Assembly: GCA_028705215.1 (NCBI GenBank) | Contig: JAQWDY010000005.1 | Location: 1 to 53,530 of the forward strand | DNA from: Patescibacteria group bacterium | Lineage (GTDB): Bacteria; Patescibacteriota; Patescibacteriia; Patescibacteriales; UBA12465 | Length of the DNA: 53,530 nucleotides | Direction of reading: 5' to 3' | In this document: positions 33,858 to 47,873 of the stretch, one piece after another | How the letters are laid out: every line of letters begins with the position of its first letter | Numbering within the stretch: position 1 is the first letter of the stretch | Notes under the pieces: generated by a model | What the model was told of the DNA's origin: nothing | The model's database searches: none | What the model saw: only the letters and a program-made list of their open reading frames with translations | Made by a program: the position numbers and the translations under genes

Positions 33858-33884
33858 TTAGCAATCAAGACCATTGAGTGCTAA
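33858..33884. promoter_or_regulatory. CIRCE element (HrcA operator) upstream of groES
   Basis: TTAGCAATC-N9-GAGTGCTAA; one mismatch to TTAGCACTC-N9-GAGTGCTAA. Confidence 0.92.
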
Positions 33885-43944: not shown

Positions 43945-45861
43945 TTATTTATTTTCCTCTACTTCACCTTCAACAACTTCTTCATCCGCTTTTTTCTCAT
44001 CTTCCTTTTTATCCTCTTTTCCTGACTCTTTTCCTGCTTCTTGTGCATTCTCAGGATTTGGCTGCGCCTGGTACATCGCTGCTCCAATTTTTTGCGCCAC
44101 CACGTTGACCTCTTCTAGCTTCTTTTTTATTTCATCAAGATTATCAGTTTCTTTTACCTTCTTAAGCGCCTCTATCTTTTCTTCTAATTCTTTTTTATCT
44201 TCCGCCTTCATTTTATCGCCTGATTCCTTTAACATCTTTTCTGTAGTGAAGACAACGGCATCCGCCTGATTCTTAGTTTCAACAGCTTCTTTCTTCTTTT
44301 TATCTTCTTCAGCGTGCATTTCTGCTTCTTTTTTCATTTTCTCAATCTCTTCCGAAGATAGACCGGACGAGGCAGTGATAGTTATTTTCTGTTGCTTATT
44401 CGTTGCCTTATCGGTTGCTGAAACATTTAATATTCCATTGGCATCAAGATCAAACTTAACTTCAACTTGTGGTACTCCTCGTGGAGCTGAAGGAATGCCA
44501 TCTAAAATAAAGCGTCCTAAGGTCTTATTATCTCCTGCCATTGGCCTTTCTCCCTGAACAATGTGTATTTCTACACTAGTTTGGCCATCAGCAGCTGTGG
44601 AGAAAACTTGAGATTTTGAAGTGGGGATAGTAGTGTTTTTTTCAATCAAAGGCGTCGCCACCCCTCCCATGGTTTCAATACCAAGAGTAAGCGGAGTCAC
44701 ATCAAGAAGCAAAACGTCTTTAACATCACCTTGAAGAACACCAGCTTGAACAGCGGCGCCAAGCGCTACCACCTCATCAGGATTGACAGTTAAGTTAGGT
44801 TCTTTTTTAAAGTAATCTTTAACAATCTTTTGCACTAAGGGCATACGAGTCATGCCACCAACTAATAAAATCTCATTAATTTCTTCTAATTTAAAGCCTG
44901 AATCAGCAATTGCCTTCTTGCAAGGCTCAATAGTTTTTTCTATCAAATCTTCTACTAATGACTCCATTTTAGAACGAGACAACTTCATCATTAAATGCTT
45001 GGGTCCGTTAGCATCAGTTGTGATAAAGGGTTGATTAATTTCTGTTTCTTGAGAAGTAGAAAGCTCAATCTTCGCCTTTTCTGCTGACTCCTTTATTCTC
45101 TGCAAGGCTAATGTGTCCTGTGATAAATCAATACCTTGCTCACGTTTAAACTCTTCAATAATCCAATTTATAATCCTTTGATCAAAATCTTCTCCTCCTA
45201 AATGAGTGTCTCCATTGGTAGCCTTCACTTCGACTGTATCTGAAGAAATATCAAGGACAGAAACGTCAAAGGTTCCTCCTCCTAAATCGTAAACAACAAT
45301 TTTTTGTCCACTTTTTTTATCAAAACCATAGGCAAGCGCTGCTGCTGTTGGCTCATTGATAATACGCTTTACCTCTAAACCAGCGATTTGCCCCGCATCT
45401 TTGGTGGCTTGACGTTGAGAGTCGTTAAAATAAGCGGGCACAGTTATAATTGCCTCAGTTATCTTTTCACCTAACTTCGCCTCAGCGTCAGCTTTTAACT
45501 TTGATAAAATCATAGCTGATATCTCTTGCGGAGTATAATCTTTATCTCCCATTTTTACTTTAACGCCTTCTCCTGCTTGCACAATTTTATAGGGCGCAGT
45601 TTTTAAATCACGCTGCACCTCTTCTTCGTTAAAATGACGACCGATTAAACGTTTCACCGCATACACGGTATTTTCGGGATTAATAACCGCTTGTCTTTTA
45701 GCGGCACCGCCAATTATTCTTTCCGCATTTTTTGATATTGCAGCCACCGAGGGAGTTGTACGATTACCCTCTATGTTTTCAATTATTTTTGGACTACCGC
45801 CTTGCATAATCGCCATAGCGGAGTTCGTGGTTCCCAAATCGATTCCTAATATTTTTCCCAT
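43945..45861 (-). CDS. dnaK: molecular chaperone DnaK (Hsp70)
   Basis: [50 protein letters not shown]. Confidence 0.98.
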
Positions 45862-45969: not shown

Positions 45970-46398
45970 TTATTTTTTACTTTGAATTTTAATTGACTTT
46001 GGCTTCACTTCAGCTGCTTTTGGAATGCTAATCCTTAGAATTCCTTCTTCATTCACAGCGCTGGCGCTATCACCATCAACCTTGGTTGGTAGTGGAATAG
46101 AGCGAAAAAATGAGCCTCGACGAATTTCCTTACGATAATAATTTTTATCATCAACCTCACTTTTCTTTTCACTTTCCCCTTTAATGCATAAAACATTATT
46201 CTCAATTGAGATATCAACCTTATCGGGGTCAATGCCCGCCAATTGTGTTTCGATAATGATGTTATCATTATCTTCATACATATCAACTGCGGGGGTAAAA
46301 CCAAATTGATTTCCTCGAATAGTTGGTAACATGGATTCAGCAAGCTTATCCATGTCGTCAAAATCCGAGAAGAATGGTGTCCATTTTATTAGTGACAT
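45970..46398 (-). CDS. Hsp20/alpha-crystallin small heat shock protein
   Basis: PAVDMYEDNDNIIIETQLAGIDPDKVDISIENNVLCIKGESE..EEGILRISIPKA. Confidence 0.95.
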   Translation of the reverse strand: MSLIKWTPFFSDFDDMDKLAESMLPTIRGNQFGFTPAVDMYEDNDNIIIETQLAGIDPDKVDISIENNVLCIKGESEKKSEVDDKNYYRKEIRRGSFFRSIPLPTKVDGDSASAVNEEGILRISIPKAAEVKPKSIKIQSKK

Positions 46399-46470: not shown

Positions 46471-47088
46471 TTATTTATTTTTAACTGTTACTTTAGCTGG
46501 CCTAATAATGCGACCGTTTAATTTATAACCTGGCATTATTTCCTTATCAATCATCTCACCTTCTCCCTCTATTGCCTCCATGGTATTATGATCAAATTTC
46601 TCGTCCTTAGTTTTTATCTCCTCTATTCCTCTGTTTGCTAATACCTTTTTAAATTGCTTTAACACATGATTAACGCCAATTGCCCAAGGATTTTTTGCCT
46701 CCTCTTCTGATAAGCCATTAATTGATAATTTTAAATGATCATAAACTGGTAAAAGATCATAGAGAAAATCGGAAATAGCATATTTTACAAACTCCTCTTT
46801 TTCCCTTGCTGTTTGCTTTAATAAGTTCTGATTATCCGCTAAAGCGCGCAAGTATTTTTTTTCAAAAGAATCATCATCTTCTTTTATAAGCTCAAAACGT
46901 GGTTTCTTGCCTTCTTTTGTTTCAATTTCTTCAGAAAACATTTTCTTCGGTCGACACCAAATTTTCTCATCTTCTAAACTTTGATAAACTACCTGTTCCT
47001 GCTTATCTTCTGAATTTTGCGCCTCACCAATAACTTTATACTTTGAACCTTTATAATGCTTATAAATTCCTGGTTTAATAATATTCAT
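46471..47088 (-). CDS. grpE: GrpE nucleotide exchange factor with N-terminal DUF1653-like domain
   Basis: N-term PGIYKHYKGSKYKVIGEAQNSEDKQEQVVYQSLEDEKIWCRPKKMFSEEIETKEGKKPRFELI; GrpE ALADNQNLLKQTAREKEEFVKYAISDFLYDLLPVYDHL..GYKLNGRIIRPAKVTV. Confidence 0.88.
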   Translation of the reverse strand: MNIIKPGIYKHYKGSKYKVIGEAQNSEDKQEQVVYQSLEDEKIWCRPKKMFSEEIETKEGKKPRFELIKEDDDSFEKKYLRALADNQNLLKQTAREKEEFVKYAISDFLYDLLPVYDHLKLSINGLSEEEAKNPWAIGVNHVLKQFKKVLANRGIEEIKTKDEKFDHNTMEAIEGEGEMIDKEIMPGYKLNGRIIRPAKVTVKNK

Positions 47089-47833: not shown

Positions 47834-47862
47834 ATTATAAACAAAATTAGCACTCAAGTCAA
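47834..47862 (-). promoter_or_regulatory. sigma70-type promoter of hrcA operon
   Basis: Minus strand TTGACT (47862-47857), 17-bp spacer, TATAAT (47839-47834); -35 lies within the CIRCE element. Confidence 0.85.
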
Positions 47863-47873
47863 GAGAGTGCTAA
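47847..47873. promoter_or_regulatory. CIRCE element (perfect), upstream of hrcA
   Basis: TTAGCACTC-AAGTCAAGA-GAGTGCTAA. Confidence 0.97.

Follow-up and report, generated by a model that had tools for sequence, protein, structure and literature searches.

Results

A heat-shock operon with a DUF1653-GrpE fusion gene

The window, the whole 53,530-nucleotide stretch of Patescibacteria DNA analysed here, carries a heat-shock operon in the order hrcA-grpE-hsp20-dnaK, in which grpE encodes an N-terminal DUF1653 domain joined to GrpE within a single uninterrupted ORF (Table 1). A search of the whole genome found one GrpE and one DUF1653 (4.2e-23), both of them in this fusion gene. A perfect CIRCE operator precedes hrcA and a second site precedes groES-groEL, whereas only 0.02 CIRCE matches would be expected by chance in the window with three or fewer mismatches allowed. 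These operator sequences make it most likely that GrpE is controlled by HrcA as a heat-shock protein, and the site upstream of groES-groEL indicates that both chaperone operons probably belong to the HrcA regulon. HrcA proteins are usually roughly 340 amino acids in length, and the shorter window HrcA therefore suggests that its C-terminal part is reduced; the CIRCE sites are nevertheless near perfect.

Table 1. Coordinates of the fusion gene, its domains and associated heat-shock features in the window
Feature	Coordinates	Strand	Basis
grpE (DUF1653-GrpE fusion, 205 aa, ATG start)	46474..47088	-	Uninterrupted ORF and Pfam; stop codon 46471-46473
DUF1653 domain, aa 7-66	46891..47070	-	Pfam PF07866; AF2 model vs 3be3
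Short linker between DUF1653 domain and GrpE helix, aa 67-74	46867..46890	-	AF2 secondary structure and alignment of 25 fused homologues
GrpE long helix, aa 75-124, N-terminal end shortened	46717..46866	-	AF2; alignment to E. coli GrpE
GrpE helix bundle and C-terminal beta domain (DnaK-binding), aa 125-205	46474..46716	-	Pfam; structure match to GrpE of 1dkg/9bls/4ani
hrcA, heat-shock repressor, 230 aa	47095..47787	-	PF01628 1.5e-17; stops 6 bases before grpE
hsp20, small heat-shock protein	45970..46398	-	PF00011 9.9e-20
dnaK, 638 aa, presumed partner of GrpE	43945..45861	-	ORF sequence; Hsp70 by direct reading of its start
CIRCE operator, perfect	47847..47873	.	0 mismatches; about 60 bases upstream of hrcA
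Second CIRCE, 1 mismatch, upstream of groES-groEL	33858-33884		

Sequence and fold of the fusion protein

When the ORF was searched against Pfam, the DUF1653 family was matched at 2.7e-22 and 79.3 bits (curated cut-off 23.5), confirming the family assignment that a preliminary description had made by eye and had proposed to check over residues 1-70. That description also placed the domain correctly to within a few bases, although the peptide it quoted omits the first residues, MNIIK. The GrpE family (PF01025) was matched across aa 53-203 (2e-34, 119 bits, profile positions 8-164 of 165). By itself the DUF1653 domain matched 3be3 from Bordetella bronchiseptica, the sole solved DUF1653 structure found, at 1.5e-6. 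An AlphaFold2 model built with 25 fused homologues (mean pLDDT 84) contained a separate beta-rich domain at residues 7-70 (pLDDT about 90) followed by the long helix, the GrpE bundle and the beta domain; pTM was low (0.43) and the relative placement of these parts is therefore not predicted by the model. The modelled DUF1653 domain corresponds to 3be3 with an rmsd of 2.0 Å, a TM score of 0.83 and 31% identity, the only other folds near it in the fold search being weak SH3/KOW-like matches. Both the Pfam score and the fold thus identify it as a DUF1653 member. The GrpE part of the model gave Foldseek matches of 5e-8 to 9bls_C and 6e-7 to 1dkg_B, with 4ani also matched.

The window protein has the PF01025 match, the GrpE fold, the hrcA/dnaK neighbourhood and the single copy per genome, and is a GrpE by every core feature tested. 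A full-length N-terminal coiled coil following a disordered tail is absent, this being the variable part of GrpE and no criterion of family membership, and the helix begins at aa 75 straight after the folded domain. In E. coli GrpE the long helix starts near residue 40. Window residue 79 aligns to E. coli residue 62, and hence the DUF1653 domain takes the place of the disordered tail together with some 20 residues of the long helix, in agreement with the earlier proposals that the domain stands in place of the disordered N-terminus and that the long helix is shortened.

The fusion itself, also proposed earlier, is shared over its whole length by relatives at 85-47% identity and is therefore not an accident of assembly, many independent genomes carrying it. 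Compared with the nearest relative, dN/dS of the DUF1653 part was 0.23; the domain is under purifying selection, looser than that on the GrpE part, where synonymous sites approach saturation.

Distribution of N-terminal modules

GrpE was found in 106 of the 111 genomes of the order, and the suggested survey of related GrpE proteins found a folded N-terminal module in 53 of these and none in the other 53, as counted from fetched frames, with frames shorter than about 200 residues (not all fetched) taken as module-free because they leave no room for a module, and with one genome (G027) scored as module-free although its gene is split at contig ends and probably fused. The modules comprised DUF1653-GrpE (27 genomes), Nudix-GrpE (18), degenerate Nudix (five) and DUF1653-Nudix-GrpE (three). 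Since half of the order is without any module, the module is dispensable for GrpE function. Among 40 relatives most GrpEs from the genus of the window carried the fusion and some did not, and several longer GrpE N-termini that seemed unfused were Nudix domains. Outside the order, modular GrpE genes are rare among the matches listed, with at least six loci in other orders of the class (L144, L145, L158, L235, L237 and L240).

The RExxEE catalytic box was intact in 22 of 23 non-degenerate fused Nudix domains. Nudix-GrpE proteins (L018, L019, L026, L074, L078 and L086 among others) mostly have an intact box; they are widespread in the order and occur in a few other families of the class as well. 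Degenerate Nudix domains that have lost the catalytic residues were present at the GrpE N-terminus at L023, L024, L081, L087 and L092, from two genera, all within family f1. Genus g2 has DUF1653, Nudix and GrpE in one chain at L043 (1474-2514, +), L045 and L051, modelled with three confident domains; this triple form is possibly an intermediate from which the DUF1653-only forms of g2 arose by deletion.

Other peculiarities were seen in single sequences. At L083 (1992-2861, -) the linker between DUF1653 and GrpE, aa 75-145, consists of near-perfect repeats of SENPPTPLCQGGEN, apparently an expanded DNA repeat read as protein, and L026 has a PSAGSGQGG insert within the GrpE beta domain. At L236 (2845-3399, +), a 170-kb viral contig (IMGVR_UViG_3300028591_003737) has a gene for plain GrpE, about 184 aa long; a phage origin of the modules was considered and set aside, this one viral contig having only the plain form.

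Exchange of modules between GrpE genes

Three sister loci of genus g15 (L026, L063 and L084) have a common hrcA end (about 84-97% DNA identity), a common start, ATGAGTGAAGA, a common hsp20 and a GrpE core at about 80-91% DNA identity, whilst the region between start and core encodes DUF1653 in one of them and mutually divergent Nudix domains (48-64%) in the other two. The exchanged interval is flanked by the start codon and by the conserved KYxRALADYQNL helix. The same swap was seen within one genus of another family, f231 (DUF1653 at L158, Nudix at L235), and within the genus of the window (DUF1653 at L004, plain tail at L017). The window GrpE represents one state of an exchangeable module.

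On a tree of the GrpE core the architectures required 22 changes by parsimony, of which supported branches force only 4-6 (main states), a consequence of the short alignment of 137 columns that leaves many forks open. The 27 fused Nudix domains formed one clade relative to the sampled free ones (support 89), and when one of them was searched against the order, its best 21 matches were all GrpE fusions, ahead of any free Nudix. Likewise, the fused DUF1653 domains formed one group (support 95), which also held three other rows: a pair of long branches and a fragment from a contig end, this last probably a fusion too. The domain trees conflict with the core tree. L085+L088+L095, joined at 97 by the GrpE core, is rejected by the Nudix data (p 5e-116), and L063+L067+L158, a grouping of the DUF1653 domains, is rejected by the GrpE core (p 4e-4). 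Taken together, the single fused lineages and the conflicting trees suggest that each module type had one source and then moved between GrpE genes.

Other histories were weighed. Many independent captures of unrelated domains can be rejected, since the fused Nudix and the fused DUF1653 domains are one lineage each. Vertical loss from a single DUF1653-Nudix-GrpE ancestor is plausible within genus g2 and is insufficient for the whole, given the conflicting trees and the swaps between sister genomes. A second DUF1653 was present in 0 of 30 fused genomes and in 13 of 76 others (p 0.018, the genomes sharing ancestry). Plain relocation of a free DUF1653 gene into grpE fails as a sole explanation, the fused domain being a distinct, diverged group.

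Residues and genomic company of DUF1653

Fused DUF1653 domains keep G7, Y9, H11, K13, Y17, Y35, W44, R46, R64 and F65. They are relaxed at H25, S26, T28, P47, E53 and G59, positions that free-standing members hold at 85-100%: position 25 is N, D or Q rather than H, and P47 and E53 are retained in 61% and 58%, respectively. The window domain reads NSEDKQ and RPKKMFSE where HSETxE and RPxxMFxE are typical of free-standing members, these motifs being a subgroup trait of free-standing members in the phylum and partly missing from 3be3 itself. Loss of residues conserved in the free-standing proteins makes it doubtful that the original ligand site is kept in fused DUF1653, and the relaxed residues, together with the catalytic box lost from five Nudix domains, indicate that at least some modules no longer work in the ancestral way. 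The ligand- or RNA-binding sensor role suggested in the preliminary description is accordingly conjectural, and no support was found for RNA binding by the DUF1653 module.

A Nudix gene lies within 1.5 kb of 13 of 63 free DUF1653 loci compared with 2 of 90 GrpE loci (p 2e-4, an optimistic value as the loci share ancestry). DUF1653 was also found joined to Nudix without GrpE (L143, L245 and L246), and to a nucleoside 2-deoxyribosyltransferase-like domain without GrpE (L243, 1450-2088, +; L244, 1453-2097, +). Together with the interchange of DUF1653 and Nudix on GrpE, this company points to a context in nucleotide metabolism. At L124 and L164 DUF1653 is joined to a KLVRDxI-type MazG/PRA-PH-like region, the motif having been recognized by eye and the Pfam match being sub-threshold or absent.

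Discussion

The disordered N-terminal tail of E. coli GrpE binds the substrate site of DnaK via an IIM motif and aids client release (PMC12915176). In mycobacterial GrpE, deletion of the tail blocked substrate release. We propose that in the sole, heat-shock GrpE of this organism a folded DUF1653 domain has taken over the place of the tail and of the beginning of the coiled coil. Within this order the GrpE N-terminus is a modular site that holds DUF1653, a GrpE-specific Nudix, both in tandem or a plain tail, and recombination in the stretch bounded by the conserved start and the KYxRALADYQNL helix has let lineages swap modules. The conserved GrpE core would still open the nucleotide-binding domain of DnaK, and nucleotide exchange is expected to persist. 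By homology each protomer would hold its own module where the coiled coil ends, near the DnaK substrate-binding domain, and there the module may take over or tune the client-release role of the tail and so set the time for which DnaK holds its clients. The modules may derive from nucleotide-pool proteins, and client hold time might, more speculatively, respond to a nucleotide-like metabolite. From the role of the tail in the E. coli and mycobacterial proteins and the homologous position of the module, we infer with moderate confidence that a folded, exchangeable cap replaces the GrpE tail and tunes client release, perhaps with a nucleotide-like ligand.

A further-reaching version is possible though doubtful. 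In Patescibacteria the GrpE N-terminus would be a cassette site, fed by recombination, that mounts nucleotide-handling Nudix and DUF1653 domains on the DnaK machine and so makes nucleotide exchange and the release of clients depend on a nucleotide signal or on the load of damaged nucleotides, with turnover of modules selected by stress niche or by phage/host pressure.

Alternatively, the modules may be catalytic or binding units for nucleotides carried on the DnaK machine, hydrolysing or sensing a nucleotide next to DnaK during heat stress, for example a damaged one or an alarmone of the dinucleoside polyphosphate class, with DUF1653 as a non-catalytic version. The nearly universal intact box of non-degenerate fused Nudix domains is consistent with this, as are the Ap6A/Ap4A hydrolases 1vc8 and 3i7u, which rank among the nearest solved structures in sequence and among the top matches in fold, and the association of DUF1653 with Nudix and deoxyribosyltransferase-like domains. 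Ap4A cross-links to the DnaK of E. coli (Johnstone and Farr 1991, cited in PMC10148737), which points the same way, and the PilZ-DnaK chaperones CsdK1 and CsdK2 of Myxococcus xanthus offer a precedent, with a domain of nucleotide-messenger type likewise placed on a component of an Hsp70 machine (PMC10313047). However, the fold specifies no substrate, NudI and MutT-like structures matching equally well; degenerate Nudix domains persist in two genera; conserved residues are lost in fused DUF1653; and the window GrpE has no enzyme-like module at all. We think such a function rather improbable.

Neutral or near-neutral capture, in which the tail tolerates any soluble cap and modules hitch along after recombination without any specific function other than stability or support of the dimer, would account for the repeated gain, loss and replacement of modules, plain tails included, for the degenerate Nudix domains and relaxed DUF1653 residues, and for the module-free half of genomes. 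It is nevertheless unlikely: just two domain types, one lineage each, have been reused again and again rather than random domains, most Nudix boxes are intact, the DUF1653 part has the low dN/dS given above, and 60-200 extra residues have been kept in reduced genomes of about 0.6-1.4 Mb.

Separate products, with DUF1653 as a distinct protein and a stand-alone GrpE made by internal initiation, as the preliminary description had allowed for, are highly improbable: an in-frame ATG does exist at codon 50, the only internal ATG ahead of the GrpE helix in the window ORF, but no convincing Shine-Dalgarno sequence was seen before it, it is Asn in the nearest relative (L003), fewer than half of fused domains (48%) have Met there, and no stop or frameshift separates the domains in any fused relative.

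The folded, exchangeable domain sits on an otherwise familiar protein. Like the GrpEs of E. coli (1DKG) and M. tuberculosis (8GB3) and human GRPEL1 (9BLS), the window protein has the core bundle and beta domain, and it resembles known GrpEs in its operon with hrcA and dnaK, CIRCE control and single copy; it differs in the folded domain that takes the place of the N-tail and adjoining helix, for which relatives have Nudix or both. What sets it apart is the N-terminal architecture and its exchange, the GrpE core itself being known. The DUF1653 domain shares the fold and core residues of 3BE3, a protein of unknown function, whereas free-standing members of 70-100 aa have the HSETxE and RPxxMFxE motifs and the fused members form a group of their own in which these are relaxed. 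The Nudix module of relatives, absent from the window grpE, shares its fold, and in most cases its catalytic box, with Nudix hydrolases (PF00293; NudI and the Ap6A hydrolase Ndx1) and is a dedicated GrpE-fused lineage. In CsdK1 and CsdK2 the PilZ domain is on DnaK itself, whereas here the module is on the sole nucleotide exchange factor, and exchange of modules is not seen there in the accessible part of that source. No earlier description of a DUF1653-GrpE or Nudix-GrpE fusion, and no mention of DUF1653 together with GrpE, was found in the literature searched, whose coverage was thin for subscription journals and preprints; InterPro may show the architectures.

GrpE is among the most conserved co-chaperones, and action of its N-tail on the DnaK substrate site has been shown only recently. 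Closely related GrpEs with DUF1653, an intact Nudix, a dead Nudix or a plain tail provide a ready-made test of the tail region, a natural set found in ultra-small bacteria that have only one GrpE and a genome of about 1 Mb. The fusion also supplies a functional context for DUF1653, a family with almost no literature, and the module suggests a hitherto unsuspected control point on the Hsp70 chaperone.
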